Virus record (IMG/VR): IMGVR_UViG_3300020404_001728
Location: 1-25,753 of that record
Length of the DNA stretch: 25,753 bases
Direction: 5' to 3' (one strand)
Origin: a virus
Notes under the pieces: model-generated
Databases searched by the model: none
What the model was told of the DNA's origin: nothing
Seen by the model: the letters and a program-made list of their open reading frames with translations, nothing else
Program-made: the position numbers and the translations under genes
Shown here: positions 2,036 to 25,753 of the stretch, piece by piece
Numbering within the stretch: position 1 is the first letter of the stretch
Layout: every line of letters starts with the position of its first letter

Positions 2036-2530
2036 TTAATTATCCAAGTCTTTTCTAAAGAATTTTCCTAATAAATTATCATTTAACGCCATTTCATCAC
2101 CCAAAACATCATGTGAAAACTGTTCTTGTAACTCATAGTACGTTAAAGCCTTCTTATTTTTACAAAATTTAAGGATTTTTAACTCTAATCTATCATTTAT
2201 ATCATCTCTCCTATCTTCAGTAAGAGCTTGTTCATTAGTATGAAACCACAATTGTACGATAGGATTAGAAGAACGATACTTTTTCCAATCAGATTCTTTC
2301 TCTACCATTTCGTACCTTTTCATTCTTTTATCTTCAAGTTTAGCAATTTCCTTTTTACCAAATTTTCTTTTTCTAATAGAAACTACTTGTTTTTTTCCGA
2401 TATAGTACTGGCCAGTTTGACCATTTGTTATTTTGTAAATAAACCCAAAAGTATCTTCGGGCATATCTGATAATTCTGTTATTACTCTGCCGTTATATGT
2501 CCAGCTCATAGTTAAAAATTTTGAAATCAT
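2036..2530 (-). CDS. GIY-YIG-like nuclease-fold protein
   Basis: A 164-aa protein with the hallmarks of the phage GIY-YIG group. GFIYKI occupies residues 29-34 and YYIGKK residues 42-47. Then come a basic stretch, a DWKKYRSS segment near residue 80, a YYE motif whose Glu133 would be the metal ligand, and an NDNLLG motif (Asn150/Asn152) near the C-terminus. These fit the single-domain Seg-like nucleases common in T4-like phages. The segment between the two core motifs and the helix is unusual, being very Lys/Arg-rich. I take the ATG at 2530 because GAGAGG lies 7 bases upstream; an in-frame ATG at 2509 (MSWTYN) is possible. The 5' end overlaps the sulfotransferase gene by 38 bases in another frame. 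Function is unproven: homing endonuclease, repair nuclease or anti-host nuclease are all possible. Confidence 0.75.
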   Translation of the reverse strand: MISKFLTMSWTYNGRVITELSDMPEDTFGFIYKITNGQTGQYYIGKKQVVSIRKRKFGKKEIAKLEDKRMKRYEMVEKESDWKKYRSSNPIVQLWFHTNEQALTEDRRDDINDRLELKILKFCKNKKALTYYELQEQFSHDVLGDEMALNDNLLGKFFRKDLDN

Positions 2531-3068
2531 TTGAGTACCTCTCTTCTACCCAATTCTTTACATCCTTATCGTTGTAAATATGCTTATAAAAGTCATGTTG
2601 ATTTAGATTGGGATGTTTATCATAAATTGAGTTACGATTATGATGTGGTATTGAGTGACCATCTTTACCAACGTAATCCATTACAAGATTAAAATCATTG
2701 ATAAAGTTTTCATATCTGCCGATAAATGTTACCTTTTTATCTTCAGTACTTCCATTTTGTATAAACCAATATTGGGGAAAGAAAACATAATCATTCAAAT
2801 CCATGTTTTCTATAAATTTATTAATACTCATCCAACCATTTATTCTTGTTTGATGGTAATATGCAGATGCAAATCGAGTATAAGGATTTCTTACAAAACA
2901 CATAATGTGGTAATCCTTTATATTTTCAAATTTTCCAATATGATTGTGTGCTTTGGTAACGTATTCAGTACCTTTTACTTTGTGTAATACTGATGTAATA
3001 GATGTGCCACCAGTTTTAGGTATATGAATAAACCCCCACTTTTTAGAACGATTTATCAGTAAACTCAA
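2493..3068 (-). CDS. PAPS-dependent sulfotransferase family protein
   Basis: A 191-aa protein of the cytosolic/Golgi-type sulfotransferase fold (Sulfotransfer_2-like), which moves a sulfuryl group from PAPS to a hydroxyl, typically on a glycan. The 5'-phosphosulfate loop is IPKTGGTS (Pro17 to Ser23). The 3'-phosphate-binding segment is VRNPYTRFASAYY, with Arg60 and Ser68 as the expected contacts. The order and spacing of both motifs are right, and the length is short but complete for the family. There is no ATG before the P-loop. The best start is TTG at 3068, with no Shine-Dalgarno sequence, 10 bases after the stop of the 62-aa gene, so translation may depend on coupling. The substrate is unknown. 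It lies between structural and replication genes next to a GIY-YIG gene, a typical cargo position. Confidence 0.85.
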   Translation of the reverse strand: MSLLINRSKKWGFIHIPKTGGTSITSVLHKVKGTEYVTKAHNHIGKFENIKDYHIMCFVRNPYTRFASAYYHQTRINGWMSINKFIENMDLNDYVFFPQYWFIQNGSTEDKKVTFIGRYENFINDFNLVMDYVGKDGHSIPHHNRNSIYDKHPNLNQHDFYKHIYNDKDVKNWVEERYSNDFKIFNYELDI

Positions 3069-12393: not shown

Positions 12394-14874
12394 TTATTGT
12401 TCCTTAAAATTTACATCAATTTTTGAATAATCTACCATATCATATCCACTTATATCTCTTATAACTGCACTTTGAGGTATCTCATCAGACATAACACCTT
12501 GGAATACTCCATCACCATATTTAGTATCTTTATATTCAAAACTATATATATTTAATCCACTTAGTGATTCACCAATTTTATTTATGTTTTTCTTTAATCT
12601 TCTATCACTAAAGGTCATTTTTGTATAACTTTCAAAATTAGCTTTGAAGTTGTGTGTTAATATACCATTCGCATAATAAGTATGTTTACCATCTAGTGTT
12701 AGAAGAAATACATCATCTTCTCTTACTAAGAACATACTATTTAATTCTATTTCTTCTTTTTCTCTTGTTAAAAATATATCACCCAATTCTAATTCTAATG
12801 TAGTTTTTATTTGCCACTCATCATCTCTTTTTATAAGGTGTTTGTGTTCCTCACTACATTCTAACAATCCATCATTAATTGAATAAACTGCTCTATCTGT
12901 AAGGTGTTGGAAATCTATTACCTTAAATTCAGAATAATCATATTTTTCAATATCTTTACCCTTCCAATTATCTTCTACTTTATTCCAAGATGATAATGTT
13001 TTTATATCTAATCCTTTTATGGATTGTCCTACTTTAATATCTTGAACATTTATCATTGTACCATCAGCTGCTTCTATTTTTGTATCGGCAACAAGACATC
13101 CGCCTCCACCTCCACTACCAAATCCACCTCCAGATGAACCTCCTCCACCTTTTGGTTTAGTATATCCACACTTTGGACTATTCTTAGTCATAGTAGGCAT
13201 ATTACTTTTAACTCCACAATTACCATCAGCATAAGCTACAGCTCTAGTAGTTCCAGCACAAGTATCTTTTATAATAGTACCAGCCGCTGGACATACTTTT
13301 TTTGGTGGTGGTTTTGCCACACCAGCTTGAGTGAAAGTAATAGATGCCGATAATCCAGATGCATCTCCTGTTCCTCTACAAGTAAACGAACCAGTTCTTG
13401 TTGGTCCAGTATTTTCTTGAACTCCAAGTGTTAGTGTTCCTCCGAATCCAGTTCCAGTAGAATCACCATTTACTGAACACCAACTTGGGGGGCTACAACT
13501 TACTCCAACTTTACCTCTACATTTACTTCTTGCAGGTGACTTAAAGTGGTCTCCATTCCAAAAAACATATCCACCTTGTAATCTAGTTTGTGCACCCTTA
13601 GTGAAGCTTCTATCTCCCGAGGTTATATGAATACTCATTCCACTTTTGTATGATGAACACGAACCACCAGTTGGAGATGGAGGACTTCCTCCACCAGATG
13701 GTTTTGGCCTTGGTTTAGGTATGGGTACTGGTATCGGTTTCGGCGGTGGTGGAGGTGGTGGTACAGGCACTTTTCTGTATTTAGTTACCTGAATCGAATA
13801 TGTACACTTATCATCCACAGTTGCCAATTTATTATAGTTTTTAGCTTTAGGGTCTCTACATCCTCTTATTGCGGGTTTCTTTTCTGTTGGAGATTCTGCA
13901 TAAAACTCTCCATCAGATTTAACTGTTCTTAATATTTTATCAACCTTATCTAAAGTTTCTTGTTGTGCTCTTGTTTTAATTGTCTTTTGAAAATCTTGAT
14001 TTGGTAAATGATAATCTACACAATTTTCTGCAATATCACACAATTGTTTTATTATTCCTTTACTATTAAAGTTTACACCAAACTTATCACCAGTTGGTTG
14101 GCCAAATGTTGATTGGTCTTTAATATTAAAATATCTATTGTTTCTAAAGTTATCCATTGATTTATCAAAAGATAATTTTACTAAACTTAAAAATCTTTCA
14201 AAGTTATCAATTTTGAATTCTTTTTCTATTAACTTAATATAGTTTTTACCATCTGCTACTTTACCTCTTAGTTGTAACATTTTAGTTACAATACTGGCTA
14301 CATCGAATTGTTCAGAAAACTCATCTAAGAATAAAACTATATCGGCAAAGAAATCATCACCACTAGTAAATGTTTGATATCTTAAATCTAAATCTTCATT
14401 TGGCTGTCCAGTCGATTCATCTATTACTGGTAAAACTCTAACTTCTGTTCTAGATGGTGATATTTCATGTATCCATGCTCTATCAAACATTCTATCTTCA
14501 GAACCCAATCTTCTGTTTAGTAAAGCAACTGATGTCTTAAATACACCTTGTGAATACCCAGCTTCTTTTATTAATTTCTCAACATCTATAAAAAACTCTT
14601 CTGCCTTATTTCTTTTTAGATTAAACTTTGTTTTATCAGCTTTACTAAAATATTTTTTAATGTTAGAATCTGTATATGATATATATCTTACAAGTTTTCC
14701 ATTTGAAGATTCTTGTGGTAGGGCGTTATCATTTGAATCATATAATATGAATTCAATTAAATCACCAACATCGAGACCAAAGATACCTCTACGAACTTCT
14801 CTTTCGAAAATTTCTCTATCTTTTTTATCAACTCGATAGCCTTTTTTTTCTTCTATGTTTTTGAAATCTTTCAT
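12394..14874 (-). CDS. Tail protein with Hint (hedgehog/intein) domain and C-terminal S74-type chaperone
   Basis: An 826-aa mosaic. Residues 1-300 are a structural domain with an EISPSRTEVRVLP motif near 140, known to me from marine phage tail genes. Cys339-Cys357 bracket a CRDPKAKNYN...DDKC calcium-loop-like motif. Residues 367-395 are a Pro-rich rod. About 400-520 is a Cys-containing beta domain. About 525-575 is a small Cys module ending in KCGY, of a type seen in tail fibres. A Gly-rich linker follows. Residues 593-742 are a Hint domain, starting at Cys593 (GCLVADTKIEAADG), with a SEEHKH block-B-like motif and ending ANGILTHN (His741-Asn742). The next residue is Phe, not Cys/Ser/Thr, so splicing is unlikely and cleavage more plausible. 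Residues 756-826 begin with SDRRLKKNI, the S74 peptidase/intramolecular chaperone signature, but lack the long terminal helices. The protein is a probable tail spike or fibre that matures by self-cleavage. Confidence 0.88.
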   Translation of the reverse strand: MKDFKNIEEKKGYRVDKKDREIFEREVRRGIFGLDVGDLIEFILYDSNDNALPQESSNGKLVRYISYTDSNIKKYFSKADKTKFNLKRNKAEEFFIDVEKLIKEAGYSQGVFKTSVALLNRRLGSEDRMFDRAWIHEISPSRTEVRVLPVIDESTGQPNEDLDLRYQTFTSGDDFFADIVLFLDEFSEQFDVASIVTKMLQLRGKVADGKNYIKLIEKEFKIDNFERFLSLVKLSFDKSMDNFRNNRYFNIKDQSTFGQPTGDKFGVNFNSKGIIKQLCDIAENCVDYHLPNQDFQKTIKTRAQQETLDKVDKILRTVKSDGEFYAESPTEKKPAIRGCRDPKAKNYNKLATVDDKCTYSIQVTKYRKVPVPPPPPPPKPIPVPIPKPRPKPSGGGSPPSPTGGSCSSYKSGMSIHITSGDRSFTKGAQTRLQGGYVFWNGDHFKSPARSKCRGKVGVSCSPPSWCSVNGDSTGTGFGGTLTLGVQENTGPTRTGSFTCRGTGDASGLSASITFTQAGVAKPPPKKVCPAAGTIIKDTCAGTTRAVAYADGNCGVKSNMPTMTKNSPKCGYTKPKGGGGSSGGGFGSGGGGGCLVADTKIEAADGTMINVQDIKVGQSIKGLDIKTLSSWNKVEDNWKGKDIEKYDYSEFKVIDFQHLTDRAVYSINDGLLECSEEHKHLIKRDDEWQIKTTLELELGDIFLTREKEEIELNSMFLVREDDVFLLTLDGKHTYYANGILTHNFKANFESYTKMTFSDRRLKKNINKIGESLSGLNIYSFEYKDTKYGDGVFQGVMSDEIPQSAVIRDISGYDMVDYSKIDVNFKEQ

Positions 14875-16165: not shown

Positions 16166-17227
16166 TTATCTTTCTACTGTAAACGTTAAATCTTTATCTG
16201 AAAAATATTCTACAACACCATTTCTTTCGGTTTTTACTTCAATATAATAATCTCTTTCTGTTTCAAAGTTTATAAGATTAAGGTTAAAGTAATTACCATT
16301 TGAATCACAAGATACTTTAGTGTAATCACCAAATGGAAGTATTACCTCATCTGTTTGTATATCTTTTATTTGATAATACGTTGTAGATGGTAAAAAATAT
16401 ACATCTGTATATGCATACTGATTTGAATAAGTTTTAAGAGGATATTTTTCTCTTCCAAAAACTCGTATCTGTGGTTTACTTCCTTTTTTGTATTTTGTTT
16501 TTAATCTCTTAAATGTTACATGAATATCATCAGATGTGAGTTCTGTTAGTGAACCAGTAGAAAAAGATGAATCATCCCAACCTATTCTAAGTTTTGGTTG
16601 GTAAATTGTATTTGTCTCTTTGGAGAAAAACTTTAGTTGACCGTAATCATTTACATCATTCTCCAATGATGATGTATATTTTAGAATAAATCCTTCATTT
16701 GGTAAATCACCACTAATCCAAGTATCAAGTGTTCCTTTAACATCCATTGAAATATCAGATGTTTCATATGAAAATGATTGAGATGAAAAAGAACCAGTAA
16801 ACCAAATACCACCCTTTCCATTGAAAGAACCAGTTGTATCTGATGAATGGTTTTCTTGACTCATCCAATCTTGACCAGTTCTACAACTATCCCATGTTAC
16901 ACCATCAGTTGATATTTCATCAAATCTAGTTCCTATACCCATATCCCATGATTGAGATACTGCATATGCATAGATTGTATAATCTGTTGGTATTTCACTT
17001 GATTCACATTCTCTTAAAATAAGTTCAACAGCACTTGCAGTTATTTCTCCACTTGCTATTGATTGAGAAATTGAGTTAGTATCAAATTTTATTAACGAAT
17101 GTGATATATCTTTAAGATTACCATAATATGTTTTTGATATCTCAAGTATCTCATCTCTTCCTGTATTCTGAGATGGTTGTTGTAAGTAAATAGTTGCATC
17201 TTTAGATGCTGTTACGAAATGATACAT
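16166..17227 (-). CDS. DNRLRE-like baseplate/tail protein, 353 aa
   Basis: The N-terminal half (residues 1-200) has the pattern of DNRLRE-type beta-sandwich domains. It opens with ASKDATIYLQQPSQNTGRDE, then a LIKFD strand, later YTIYAYAVSQSWDMGIGTRF, and Trp-rich segments, features also seen in carbohydrate-binding or adhesin modules. The C-terminal half is a second beta domain ending in a YIEVKTERNG strand. There is no signal peptide and no catalytic signature. Its ATG shares a base with the stop of the gp6 gene (TAATG) and is preceded by GGGGAGGG, a strong ribosome-binding site, so it is translationally coupled to the wedge protein. The position suggests a wedge- or fibre-attachment protein. 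Confidence 0.75.
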   Translation of the reverse strand: MYHFVTASKDATIYLQQPSQNTGRDEILEISKTYYGNLKDISHSLIKFDTNSISQSIASGEITASAVELILRECESSEIPTDYTIYAYAVSQSWDMGIGTRFDEISTDGVTWDSCRTGQDWMSQENHSSDTTGSFNGKGGIWFTGSFSSQSFSYETSDISMDVKGTLDTWISGDLPNEGFILKYTSSLENDVNDYGQLKFFSKETNTIYQPKLRIGWDDSSFSTGSLTELTSDDIHVTFKRLKTKYKKGSKPQIRVFGREKYPLKTYSNQYAYTDVYFLPSTTYYQIKDIQTDEVILPFGDYTKVSCDSNGNYFNLNLINFETERDYYIEVKTERNGVVEYFSDKDLTFTVER

Positions 17228-19263
17228 TATACAACCCTCCCCTTTATATCTTTACCAGGATACTTCAACTCAAATACACATGGGTCTAATGATGGGTAAA
17301 CCATTTTACCTTTAGTTGCATTACTAATATTGTATTTGTGTTTAGAGTAAACCCCACCACATTTATTAACTATTTCACATTTTGGTACAGATAAAACACC
17401 CTCTACTCCTGCAATTACTAATTCTAATTCAGAAATATTAATTGGTTGATTAAATGCCCAATCATCAATATTAAAATATTTTTCTATTTCAGTTATACAT
17501 TTCAACATTACTTCTCTTTTATTGTAAGAGTTGTAAACCATTATTTCAAAATCAACACCTATGTTTATTACAAACCCATCTAATAAGTTTATACCATCGG
17601 TTAACAATCTAAATTCTGATAAATATGTTTTAACATTTTCTTTAACTGCTTTATTTAATGAAGTTAAATTTTTACTTGAATTATATCCAAGTAAATATAA
17701 GTTTATAGCAAATGGATTATTTTTTTCTTCTTGTCCTGTTTTACCAACTAAAAATCTTTGTAATTCTGTTTTGATTTCTGTTTCGGTTTTTTTATCACCA
17801 GTATTTAGTTTCTCAACCAATCCTGCAAATTCCTCAAGAGAATCAGGATTATTTAGTATAGAACTAGGTGAGTTATTATCTAACTCTCCATCAGGTGCAC
17901 AGAATGCTTTCGCAACTCCACCAAACTTAGGAGGAAGTGCCAACGCTCTAACTTGATAATCTTTTCTTGTTACTGCTCTGTTTTGTGAACCGAAGTGTGC
18001 AAGTGCATTTTCTCTAATCTCATCAATAGTTTCCGAACCCCTACCACCACTAGCTGGTATTTCATTTTCTGCAGCTATTGAGTTCTTAACAGTTCCATAC
18101 ATTTGAAGTTCATCATCATCAAACAAACTCAAATCCTCATCGAATTCCATTTTAGTAATTCTTTTTATAGATGCTTTAGATACATTTGCCTCAACACCAC
18201 CACCAACTAGATATCTAACAGATAATGTTGTATTAGATGGAGCCTGACCGTATGATTTAGATTTTAAGAAATTAGCTGGGTCAAATGATGCACCTAATCT
18301 ATCTATTGAATTATTTAATCCTAATCCTACATTCTTGAAGTTTGGTAAAAATGTTTCATCAGATGAAGTTGAATTACCGGCCCCAAATACAATTGAAGTT
18401 GTGTTGTTAGGATTTACTTGTCTAACGAATCTACGAGATGTTTTAGTTACTCTCAATATACTAGGTACTGAATCCTTAAACTGTGCCAAATCACCATCAA
18501 ACTGAGATGTATTTGGATAATCAGTATAAACCATTTCTTGAGCAAGATAAGGAACTTCATACCACTTGTTTCCATTTGAATCTCTTACATCATATATTTG
18601 TATAATGTTAGTATCTGCCAATTCTATTTTATCAAATTGTTTAGGTGAACCAAACTGTATGTTAACTTCTTTTTCTTCTGCCGAAATAGCATTAACAAAC
18701 TTTCTTATTAAATAAAAAGTAGGTTCTTGTAATGCATTTCTCTCATACACAGAAACTTCTCTTTCAAACTCATCATTAAAGTCAACAAGTTCTGTTGTTC
18801 TAAATATAACTCCTGTATCAGATGTAAGTTCCATTCCTTCTTTTATTCTAAGTAAATATCCTTCATCCATTTCGAATCTATTATCACCTTCATATAAATT
18901 ACCACTTGCTTTCCTTTTACTTGGAGTAAGTTGATAAACAGCAACTTTAGTTAATGCAGGTGAGGTAACTTTTGGTTTGTATCCTAGAAAATTTGCAAGA
19001 GCAACAACATTGTCTTTATCCTCTGCTGTGTGTATCATTGATTCTTTTAATGTATCATCAATGTAATATCCAAGAACATCTCCTAAGTAAGATGCCATTT
19101 CTATGAACATCATACCTGGTGATGATTCATTAAAATCAGAATACGTTGTAGGGAAATATGTTTTGGCGTATTCAATTAAGTTATTTCTGAACTCACCAAA
19201 ATCTTTATTAAGATACTGAATGTTCTTTCCTAAATTTTTTCTATTTGTACTGTTTAATGCCAT
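17227..19263 (-). CDS. Baseplate wedge protein, T4 gp6-like
   Basis: A 678-aa protein matching gp6 in length (T4 gp6 is 660 aa) and in the diagnostic N-terminus: LNKDFGEFRNNLIEYAKTYF, then SPGMMFIEMASYLGDVLGYY and IDDTLKESM. The central-to-C-terminal part contains GRGSETIDEIRENALAHFGS followed by AVTRKDY near residues 405-440, the conserved baseplate J-like core shared with other contractile tails. gp6 forms the ring that ties the wedges together around the hub and holds gp25. It lies 4 bases after gp25 in the same operon, the usual pairing. An AGGA ribosome-binding site precedes the ATG. I am confident in the family. Confidence 0.95.
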   Translation of the reverse strand: MALNSTNRKNLGKNIQYLNKDFGEFRNNLIEYAKTYFPTTYSDFNESSPGMMFIEMASYLGDVLGYYIDDTLKESMIHTAEDKDNVVALANFLGYKPKVTSPALTKVAVYQLTPSKRKASGNLYEGDNRFEMDEGYLLRIKEGMELTSDTGVIFRTTELVDFNDEFEREVSVYERNALQEPTFYLIRKFVNAISAEEKEVNIQFGSPKQFDKIELADTNIIQIYDVRDSNGNKWYEVPYLAQEMVYTDYPNTSQFDGDLAQFKDSVPSILRVTKTSRRFVRQVNPNNTTSIVFGAGNSTSSDETFLPNFKNVGLGLNNSIDRLGASFDPANFLKSKSYGQAPSNTTLSVRYLVGGGVEANVSKASIKRITKMEFDEDLSLFDDDELQMYGTVKNSIAAENEIPASGGRGSETIDEIRENALAHFGSQNRAVTRKDYQVRALALPPKFGGVAKAFCAPDGELDNNSPSSILNNPDSLEEFAGLVEKLNTGDKKTETEIKTELQRFLVGKTGQEEKNNPFAINLYLLGYNSSKNLTSLNKAVKENVKTYLSEFRLLTDGINLLDGFVINIGVDFEIMVYNSYNKREVMLKCITEIEKYFNIDDWAFNQPINISELELVIAGVEGVLSVPKCEIVNKCGGVYSKHKYNISNATKGKMVYPSLDPCVFELKYPGKDIKGRVV

Positions 19264-19267
19264 AATC

Positions 19268-19699
19268 CTATTCCGCTATTTCTAATGAGACTTGATTTGT
19301 ATCAATTGATTCACCAACTCTAAAAGTTAAGTTCAATGTTGCTCTATGTCTATCTTTCATCTCATCGGTCATATCTATTTCTATTTCTTCAATCGTAACA
19401 TAAGGTAACCAAAAACTTACTGAGTTTGTTATTTCCTTTTGAACTGATGTTTCAAAATCAGTTGTCATAGGTTCAAACAATAACTCATGTAAGCCAGTAC
19501 CAAATTCTGGTTGCATGATTCGTTCACCCTTTCTTGTTTGTAAAAGGTTTCTAATGTTAGCCGAAGCAGCATCTACCAAATTAAACGTTGACTTAAAAAG
19601 ATTTGCACCCAACCTAACAGGATAATCTAACCCATAGGCATGATTATCAAAATCAGAATCAGTATCTTTTACAATACGTTTTGGTAAAACATATGACAT
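19268..19699 (-). CDS. Baseplate wedge protein gp25 (GPW/gp25 family)
   Basis: A 143-aa protein (T4 gp25 is 132 aa) with the family core: IRNLLQTRKGERIMQPEFGT, then GLHELLFEP and a C-terminal beta strand segment (ATLNLTFRVGES). gp25 binds the gp6 core bundle, and its EPR-like region nucleates the sheath; here the equivalent segment is MQPEFGTGL. AGGAG lies 9 bases before the ATG, and the next gene, gp6, follows after 4 bases. The assignment is firm from sequence and gene order. Confidence 0.96.
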   Translation of the reverse strand: MSYVLPKRIVKDTDSDFDNHAYGLDYPVRLGANLFKSTFNLVDAASANIRNLLQTRKGERIMQPEFGTGLHELLFEPMTTDFETSVQKEITNSVSFWLPYVTIEEIEIDMTDEMKDRHRATLNLTFRVGESIDTNQVSLEIAE

Positions 19700-24037: not shown

Positions 24038-24070
24038 AATGTTAAGAAAATGTTAAGAGAATGTTACCTA
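24038..24070. repeat. Three 11-base direct repeats upstream of a promoter element
   Basis: On the plus strand aatgttaagaa, aatgttaagag and aatgttaccta follow one another without gaps (sense strand TTAACATT or near-copies every 11 bases). The period equals about one DNA helical turn, and the array ends 2 bases before the promoter element, so it could be an operator or activator site. The last unit covers the stop codon of the carbamoyltransferase gene. Confidence 0.55.
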
Positions 24071-25753
24071 AAGTATCTTTTTCTTAATAATGTAGTTGTG
24101 AATCACGAGAGTATCCATCTCACAATCTAGGAAGGTTTCTATTGCTGATTTGGGGTCTAACACCATAGTTTGGTCTTTTAAGTTAAAAGAAGTGTTTATT
24201 ACAATTGGATACCCATTATCGTTACTAAGTTGTGTTAGTAGTTTATATAAACGATTGTGTTGTTTATGTTGTAACGATTGAATTCTTGCAGAACCATCAA
24301 CATGAGTTATTGCAGGAAGTTTATCTCTATACTCTTCTTTAACTTTGATAACCTGATTCATGAAAGGAACATCTTTAGTATATTCAAAGTATTTAGATTG
24401 TTCTTCTGCTTTTACTATTGGAGCAAATGGTCTGAATCCTTCTCTCTTTTTAATAATACTATTTAATTTATCTTTCATCTGTGGGTCACATGGGTTTGCT
24501 AATATAGAACGATTACCTAATGCTCTTGCACCAAATTCCATTTTACCTTCAAACCAACCTACTACATTTCCTTCTGTAATTTCTTTTGAGATAATTGGTA
24601 TTATTTCAGAATGAGTTTTTGTTTCATACCATACATCACCTTCAAAATCTAATAATGTTTCTTTAACAACATCATTAGTATAGTGAGGTCCTAAATATGG
24701 AGTTTTGTTATCTGGTCTATGTTGACCATTTCTAACATGATACAAATGTAATGCAGCTCCTATTGCTGAACCAGCATCAGATGGAGCTGGTGGAATCCAA
24801 ACATTCTTAAAGTTTGTTTTTTCCAATATCTTTCCATTGGCAGTTCCATTATAAGCACAACCTCCACTTAAACATAAGTTGTTAGATGAACGAACTGCAT
24901 ATAATCTATCTACCAATCTAAAGAATAGAAATTCATATTCTTGTTGTAAAGTTGCCGCTAAATCTTTATGAGGTTGGTTTAGATTATCTTCAGGTAACCT
25001 ATTTGGTATTCCAAATAGTTTTCCCAAGTTTTCATTAAACATATGAGTATCTGACCAATCATATGTAAAGTACTTCATGTTAAACTCAAACCCACCTTCT
25101 TCAGTTAAGGTATATAGTTTCTTAAATTTATTAGTAAACTTTTTTGGGTTACCATATGGAGCCAATCCCATCACTTTGTATTCACCTTCGTTTGGTTTGA
25201 ATCCTAAGAATGCAGTAATTGTAGAATATAACATTCCCAACGAATGTGGAAATTTAATGTTTTGTACTTTTGTAATTTTATTTGCTTCAGCATAATACAT
25301 AGAAGTAGTTACCCACTCACCAACACCATCTACTGTTAGTATAGATGCCTTATCAAAAGGTGATGTATAAAATGCATAAGAAGCATGAGAAAGATGATGG
25401 TCTCCATAAAATATTTCAATATCAGCATGAGTTATATCTACAAGTTGATTTTCGAATCTACTATACTTTAGTTTGTTTCTTTTTATTATACTTGTACGAT
25501 TGAAGATTTGAGATAGTGGTCCTCTCTTAACTGATTTTTCTATTCTATCTATTTTGTATTTGGGGTTATCATAAAAGGAAACAGCTTCAATGTTAATTCC
25601 TTTGATATTAAATTCTTTATACAACCAATTGATTGTATTAATAGGAAAAGATGAATCGTGTTTTATACCTGTAAATCTTTCTTCTTCACAAGCTCCTAAA
25701 ACTTTTCCATCTTTGATTAATGCGGCTGCACTATCGTGATATCCACAACTTAT
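24068..25753 (-). CDS. NodU/CmcH-family carbamoyltransferase, 5' end beyond window
   Basis: 561 codons are visible, open to the right edge. The true start lies outside the window, because the family N-terminus is already under way at the edge (CGYHDSAAALIKDGKV, then CEEERFTGIKHDSSFP). The YrdC-like/Kae1-like core carries the metal motif DHHLSHASYAF (near 25400), an ILTVDGVGEW strand, and the phosphate-binding LCLSGGCAYNGTANG (near 24860). The C-terminal domain shows GWFEGKMEFGARALGNRS (near 24530) and FRPFAPIV, and closes with VINTSFN. The family moves a carbamoyl group from carbamoyl phosphate, via carbamoyl-AMP, to a hydroxyl. Members occur in marine T4-like phages, and one group has been linked to carbamoylation of 5-hydroxymethylcytosine in phage DNA. 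That role here is inference; a glycan or small-molecule substrate is also possible. Confidence 0.93.
   Translation of the reverse strand: MSCGYHDSAAALIKDGKVLGACEEERFTGIKHDSSFPINTINWLYKEFNIKGINIEAVSFYDNPKYKIDRIEKSVKRGPLSQIFNRTSIIKRNKLKYSRFENQLVDITHADIEIFYGDHHLSHASYAFYTSPFDKASILTVDGVGEWVTTSMYYAEANKITKVQNIKFPHSLGMLYSTITAFLGFKPNEGEYKVMGLAPYGNPKKFTNKFKKLYTLTEEGGFEFNMKYFTYDWSDTHMFNENLGKLFGIPNRLPEDNLNQPHKDLAATLQQEYEFLFFRLVDRLYAVRSSNNLCLSGGCAYNGTANGKILEKTNFKNVWIPPAPSDAGSAIGAALHLYHVRNGQHRPDNKTPYLGPHYTNDVVKETLLDFEGDVWYETKTHSEIIPIISKEITEGNVVGWFEGKMEFGARALGNRSILANPCDPQMKDKLNSIIKKREGFRPFAPIVKAEEQSKYFEYTKDVPFMNQVIKVKEEYRDKLPAITHVDGSARIQSLQHKQHNRLYKLLTQLSNDNGYPIVINTSFNLKDQTMVLDPKSAIETFLDCEMDTLVIHNYIIKKKIL

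Follow-up and report, generated by a model that had tools for sequence, protein, structure and literature searches.

A predicted bacterial intein-like Hint domain with a lysine-bearing stub and a short S74 piece in a phage tail-region protein

Known Hint systems and the window protein

Hint domains are already known as inteins, as Hedgehog processors and as bacterial intein-like (BIL) domains. BIL2, from the BUBL1 locus of Tetrahymena (6Y75, 6TMM), is eukaryotic and lies between ubiquitin-like domains, outside virions; passages of two papers report for it thioester chemistry with lysine as acceptor (PMC8616854) and the presence of an RGG motif (PMC9200820). In the former, the structure providers describe the activated C-terminus as becoming linked to a Lys side chain through an isopeptide bond, and BIL2 is portrayed as capable of conjugation to different substrates. 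A-type BIL domains, such as that of Clostridium thermocellum (2LWY), are placed by sections of a review (PMC7765530) in the variable parts of bacterial proteins that are not conserved, and the Hog domain of Hedgehog (1AT0) is a C-terminal Hint that activates the part preceding it. In phages, the depositors of NCTB and Erwinia phage vB_EamM_Y3 had already annotated tail proteins that contain an intein domain. Here we describe an 826-residue tail-region protein (P0001) encoded at 12394–14874, on the minus strand and from an ATG start, of the IMG/VR virus record IMGVR_UViG_3300020404_001728 (positions 1–25,753; this whole stretch of 25,753 nucleotides is called the window). It ends in a Hint domain (residues 593–742; 12649–13098), a 13-residue stub with a lysine at its second position (residues 743–755; 12610–12648) and a short ICA-type Peptidase_S74 piece (residues 756–826; 12397–12609), all on the minus strand. 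What is new is that a tail-region protein of a phage combines a Lys stub with a Hint of BIL type, as judged from profiles and a predicted fold; in the present case the stub also carries a short S74. Among the matches listed in open-licence full-text literature, with subscription papers mostly outside, no role of a Hint at the termini of phage tail proteins was found.

The residues that define both modules were checked letter by letter: Cys593, His741-Asn742, Phe743, Ser756 (14 residues past Asn742) and Lys761. A Gly-rich hinge (residues 576–592; 13099–13149, minus strand) ends in GGGGG directly before Cys593. Pfam by itself is insufficient to detect the Hint (PF14890, 10.9 bits; cut-off 35.8); the NCBIfam model of the intein C-terminal region, TIGR01443, matches residues 725–742 at 20.1 bits (cut-off 15.6). 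A first-pass annotation of the same DNA, strand unstated, had called this open reading frame (ORF), placed a Hint from Cys593 to His741-Asn742 with an S74 motif 14 residues later, and proposed profile searches, structure prediction and a search for the same domain order elsewhere. The ORF and both motifs are as it described them, and the profile searches bore it out for TIGR01443 and for S74 but not for PF14890.

We aligned 48 phage Hints, namely the window, 7 members of its family and 40 others, which were retrieved with a DNA pattern encoding a glycine run, then Cys and, at +5, Thr, and were picked on condition that they had His-Asn; L144 (unclear His-Asn end), L221 (window's family) and near-identical rows were excluded from this structure alignment. 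Only Cys593, Thr598, His677, His741 and Asn742 are invariant. Unlike that of Cys, Thr and His-Asn, the invariance of the block B residue His677 is independent of the search pattern and the choice of rows. As a profile, the alignment matches solved BIL domains ahead of all inteins (2lwy, E = 4.3e-27; BIL2, 6y75, E = 5.1e-24). An AF2 model of the Hint alone, built from the same 48 rows, reached a mean pLDDT of 89 and shows the horseshoe Hint fold. Foldseek placed Tetrahymena BIL2 at the top (E = 5.6e-10; TM 0.74/0.81), followed by the gp41-1 intein, a DnaB intein and the Clostridium BIL domain, with Hedgehog lower; it returned 64 PDB chains at E ≤ 0.001, and the best 50 of the 64 are all inteins, BIL domains or Hedgehog. 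In VIA, BIL2 gave Z 19.2 over 142 aligned residues (root-mean-square deviation (rmsd) 2.0), with DnaB inteins tied within 1. The likeness to bacterial intein-like domains suggested in the first pass thus held in both profile and fold searches, and the predicted structure matched a Hint.

Several features distinguish this Hint, known from its sequence and a model, from its relatives. It resembles BIL2 in fold (best match), profile (second best) and length. With the C. thermocellum domain, its best profile match, it shares the His-Asn end and the absence of a +1 nucleophile, as an A-type BIL would have; it differs in lying in a phage tail-region protein after a Gly run and before a Lys stub. The Hog domain aligns well (Z 16.8, 132 aligned, rmsd 2.1), but the window protein keeps His-Asn and a stub and, where Hog has a sterol-recognition region, carries the 13-residue stub and S74. 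Phe743 is not the Cys, Ser or Thr of a class 1 intein at +1. The first-pass annotation held that Phe743 rules out splicing; canonical splicing is indeed not expected, but the wording was too strong, as passages of PMC7664689 describe cleaved products as predominant, not exclusive, for BIL domains without a +1 nucleophile. We give almost no weight to an ordinary intein that splices tracelessly out of a host gene. The intein-like fold and C-terminal motif would suit one, but the +1 residue is never C, S or T in the eight family members, the sequence past the Hint is not conserved across the family, and 150 residues are too few to hold a homing endonuclease.

Both modules are under constraint. 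Between the window and a second contig, L002, the ratio of non-synonymous to synonymous change (dN/dS) is about 0.22 for the Hint (Fisher P = 5e-5), that is, silent changes are favoured; it is about 0.20 for S74 (P = 0.003), and the 13 codons separating the two are saturated with changes. On its profiles and modelled fold, the Hint is a genuine one of BIL-like kind and looks active, and this intein-like module at the end of the protein probably processes itself.

A lysine in the stubs of phage Hints

Past Asn742, the only invariant residue in the eight aligned family members is the lysine at +2 (8/8; Lys744 in the window). The +1 residues are F, Y, Y, R, Y, I, N and A. The NCTB and vB_EamM_Y3 tail proteins likewise carry a C-terminal Hint with a short Lys-bearing stub after His-Asn; they differ in having collagen-like repeats, recognized by eye, in place of the BACON domain of the window protein, and no S74 was seen after their Hints. 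Beside the Hint-bearing tail gene of NCTB lies a small separate gene (L351:6492-6953) annotated 'intein domain protein', which ends HN-KVD.

We then surveyed Hints of other phages. A first set of 121 Hint frames comprised 45 C-terminal Hints with a stub of ≤40 residues, 51 N-terminal ones, 14 others and 11 whose profile match has no His-Asn near its end. Non-redundant stubs (27 of the 45) contained Lys in 26 cases, with 12.0 expected; once L023, a Lak phage row with Ser at +1 and without Lys, and the doubtful Hint L036, which has Lys, had been removed, the count, a post hoc one, was 25/25 against 11.4. In the second set, 102 further loci among the matches listed held 94 Hint frames: 40 C-terminal with a stub, 8 with longer tails, 3 N-terminal and 1 beyond a contig edge, the remainder being taken up below. 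Here the prediction had been fixed in advance, and Lys occurred in 19/19 independent non-redundant stubs versus 7.9 expected (0/200,000 draws), while R, A, D, E, G, S and T showed no enrichment. Redundancy was limited at 80% across the final 70 residues (at 85% for the N-terminal Hint set), which reduces relatedness without eliminating it. Stubs of these other C-terminal Hints span 3–38 residues, and their +1 residue is C, S or T in 6/44 (3/19 collapsed families of the first set).

When controls were matched for whether a gene follows closely, Lys was present in 44/44 stubs with 20.3 expected, and in stubs lacking such a gene in 16/16 with 6.7 expected. Lys was likewise present in 19/19 stubs against controls holding a Shine–Dalgarno-like core (8.8 expected) and in 11/11 without the core (5.1 expected). 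Overlap with a Shine–Dalgarno sequence or a close downstream gene is therefore insufficient as the whole cause of the stub lysine, since the enrichment survives matched controls.

The domain anatomy, the conserved catalytic residues and the lysine rule are established; from these and the predicted BIL-like fold we infer that a reaction occurs, with lysine as its acceptor. Tentatively, and aware that it may well prove wrong, we favour an active BIL-type Hint whose thioester is resolved by an amine, with S74 a passenger on the stub. Cys593 would attack the Gly592-Cys593 bond, holding residues 1–592 as a thioester, and cyclization of Asn742 would release everything downstream. Because the stub has a Lys but no +1 nucleophile, the thioester would most likely be resolved by an amine, for which Lys744 is the first candidate. 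In the product, an isopeptide bond would connect the tail protein with its own S74-bearing stub or with a Lys of a neighbouring protein. By analogy, the phage layout (Gly run, Cys1, His-Asn, usually no +1 nucleophile, Lys nearby) fits BIL2 chemistry, and lysine acceptance in phage tails becomes a concrete hypothesis because BIL2, the closest fold, is reported to form Lys isopeptide bonds. The first-pass suggestion of an activated C-terminus that could be joined to another molecule gains weight, as a hypothesis, from the Lys stubs and BIL2, and the stub turns a vague joining to something into a question about one residue.

A real possibility beside amine resolution is plain A-type BIL cleavage, in which thioester hydrolysis and Asn cyclization would free the Hint and the stub–S74, leaving residues 1–592 as the mature protein and the stub Lys otherwise employed. 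All catalytic residues needed for this are present, cleaved products predominate for BIL domains of this type (PMC7664689, in the passages cited above), and a review, in the sections concerned, has A-type BILs cleaving at the C-terminus but unable to ligate their flanks (PMC7765530). Hydrolysis leaves unexplained, however, why Lys occurs in all 44 non-redundant stubs, and why it is kept at +2 in a stub that is otherwise unalignable. Weighing sequence and analogy, we place Lys acceptance about level with plain hydrolysis and, with modest confidence, slightly ahead.

It is rather improbable, in our estimate, that the Hint folds yet stays unprocessed in the virion, with Hint, stub and S74 remaining as display or docking domains. 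The same protein can do without a Hint, as L009 shows; but the invariant residues are the catalytic ones, including His677, which the search did not favour, and dN/dS indicates selection on the Hint. In addition, none of the 94 Hint ORFs in the second survey stops at His-Asn, and the listed stubs have at least 3 residues, as Asn cyclization requires.

Beyond the review statement on ligation, several observations weigh against amine resolution by the stub. The relative L009 (6001–7767) lacks Hint, stub and S74 and has another C-terminal sequence in their place. The His-Asn end is missing in 42/94 Hint-like frames of the second set, some of them cut by contig ends. Ala was slightly enriched in the first set (17/25 versus 11.8 expected, P = 0.02), which was not repeated in the second. 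The position of the Lys varies between stubs, so there is no fixed catalytic position. A penultimate Lys, noticed afterwards and given descriptively, occurs in 24/44 stubs versus 6.2–8.0% of control ends; it is found in 20/28 stubs with a close downstream gene and in 4/16 without, so its placement may in part be due to signals for translating the gene that follows. The stub Lys could also be a sorting, solubility or assembly signal.

Extended to phages at large, the idea becomes more speculative, and we think it unlikely as it stands: phage tail proteins would be equipped with a self-contained conjugation device that works without ATP, in which a BIL-type Hint, preceded by a glycine run, activates the C-terminus of its own protein and passes it to a Lys. 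That Lys would belong either to the stub or to a neighbouring protein of the virion or the host surface, so that tails become linked by isopeptide bonds, here with S74 re-attached in branched form. More generally, phage tail proteins may be cut or covalently linked in this way. Should Lys indeed accept, phage tails bear a protein-conjugation system that needs no enzyme, which would matter for virion assembly, for adhesion and for the design of protein-ligation tools; if it does not, the consistent C-terminal Lys signal still calls for explanation.

Other Hint arrangements were seen in the same surveys. Phage Hints near the N-terminus have a Lys within 20 residues after them in 20/22 non-redundant cases, usually inside a Gly-rich segment, where their own content of Lys would predict 11.7 (descriptive). 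In L111, L114, L125, L157 and other phage proteins of about 1250 residues, the Hint lies close to the N-terminus between two glycine runs, the second of which contains Lys. L131, L433, L437 and L443 show apparent tandem Hints, in which His-Asn-Lys and a short stretch precede the Cys that starts the second Hint. A Gly run followed by a C-terminal Hint-like domain without His-Asn occurs in L148, L185, L207, L360, L366 and others, several ending in, for example, NVNILNA; such ends possibly carry out N-side processing only.

The S74 piece and its pairing with the Hint

Pfam PF13884 (Peptidase_S74) matches residues 756–787 at 24.2 bits (cut-off 22), covering model positions 1–37 of 58. A profile built from 21 S74 relatives matched three solved proteins at E ≤ 1, all S74-type: S16 gp37 (6F45, E = 5e-6), the GA-1 neck appendage (3GUD, E = 9e-4) and, weakly and without covering the dyad region, MyRF (7DC3, E = 0.013). 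The SDxxxK dyad of these domains is present in the window as Ser756 and Lys761. The chain stops 70 residues past Ser756, giving a piece of 71 residues whose model has no long terminal helix and no alpha4 coiled coil of the intramolecular chaperone form, in agreement with the short S74 noted in the first pass. A combined Hint and S74 model (23 rows) was of low confidence, with pLDDT blocks mostly of 24–54 for the Hint and 76–90 for S74, and no S74 chain was among its Foldseek and VIA matches.

The first-pass interpretation, which is partly supported overall, fared worst on S74. It held that S74 first chaperones the trimeric folding of the spike, after which either S74 itself or the Hint brings about its release, a scheme that we consider very improbable. 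The Ser and Lys of the dyad are present in the window and in 32/32 distinct relatives checked, and given this conservation some S74 cleavage remains conceivable. However, parts of PMC8326128 identify the C-terminal helix alpha4 as the main driver of MyRF trimerization and the trimer as required for cleavage; MyRF S74 runs on into this helix. By this comparison a classical chaperone role is unlikely because the window S74 stops short of it. Moreover, a Hint instead of a beta-helix lies immediately upstream, S74 is missing from this protein in 6/8 distinct relatives, and in the records of 3/12 relatives it sits in a separate frame of 2576–2623 residues. Under the preferred amine-resolution reading, S74 would travel with the stub as a passenger and would most likely serve for docking or interaction, not as the folding chaperone.

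It had also been suggested that the Hint took over release and S74 shortened as a result. Among 79 IMG/VR loci with an S74 relative (frames L039 and L048 open at the 5' end), one is in a Hint gene (L030, on the contig of L002) and 78 have no Hint in frame. They yielded 66 distinct S74 relatives; 32 lack the RLKKNIN search seed, and none of these is within a Hint gene. Ser, Asp and Lys are kept in 32/32, with ends 70–78 residues from the Ser (Ser counted). Lys belonged to the pattern locating the motif, but it was missing at no locus; the second search seed was biased to near relatives. A few of the 79 loci have the long type, for example L101, L106 and L107. The frames are mostly about 260–440 residues, often Ala/Gln/Gly-rich ahead of S74, and annotated phage matches include ejection, DNA injection and internal virion proteins as well as hypothetical, S74-domain structural and tail fibre proteins; a jumbo-phage review mentions, in one passage, small S74 domains on low-complexity proteins (PMC7824862). 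The short S74 form thus occurs independently of any Hint, and the Hint is not the cause of the shortening because many unrelated phage proteins also end in a short S74.

The same Hint-then-S74 order was found in L002 (87% identical), so the gene is not likely to be an assembly artefact. The search for this order proposed in the first pass succeeded there and in no other record searched. Distinct relatives with a complete C-terminus number eight: L002, with Hint and S74; L003, L004, L005, L006, L011 and L019, with a Hint and a tail of 6–35 residues but no S74; and L009. L010 equals L006, L021 shows the L005 stub, and L007 and L008 are cut; none was counted separately. In the records of 12 relatives, which are fragments, 8 have no S74 match, 3 have S74 in a separate frame and that of L002 has it in the Hint gene. 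The three separate frames are in the records of L003, L006 and L021 (E = 7e-17 to 3e-19), where the Hint protein itself lacks S74.

Both profiles fall in one frame only in the window and the contig of L002, among 349 records (which count the window itself and several overlapping loci from a single contig) and 102 further loci. A DNA scan for His-Asn plus the S74 motif with a CAT codon gave 0 stretches, the CAC form of the window being outside its reach; the other such scan gave at least 120 stretches, and of the 120 listed, which do not include the L002 contig, 10 are in frame and none has a Hint. A genome-contig scan for the pair, with search peptides from the Hint alone, yielded no relative among its 67 stretches. 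Of the matches in Lak phage, Salicola phage and faecal phages that suggested the pair by coverage, the four read (L022, L023, L024 and L027) proved to be intein or Hint frames without S74; Vibrio phage Kuja, from the same match list, was left out of this reading. A common Hint–S74 architecture is unsupported by the sets searched; within these sets, which do not prove rarity, the tandem looks like a rare domain shuffle.

The rest of the protein and its neighbours

Residues 1–370 (13765–14874, minus strand) are conserved at 67–95% identity between the window and 7 relatives, and no family could be assigned to them by PHROG, where no match was convincing, or by PDB, where there was none. A proline-rich linker leads from this region to a BACON domain, putatively for binding (residues 461–517; 13324–13494, minus strand; PF13004, 28.6 bits, cut-off 25). 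A run of PADLOC gave no match. Directly downstream of the gene lies that of a 1912-residue protein with laminin-G and phage-tail matches under their cut-offs, and two baseplate wedge proteins are encoded at 17227–19263 (PHROG E = 1.7e-23) and 19268–19699 (PHROG E = 3.1e-18). A role of the 826-residue protein in the tail or baseplate is likely because these baseplate wedge genes and the phage-tail-matching protein stand nearby. Elsewhere on the minus strand, a GIY-YIG-like and a sulfotransferase-like frame were recognized by eye at 2036–3068, and a carbamoyltransferase-like frame, interrupted by the window end, at 24068–25753.

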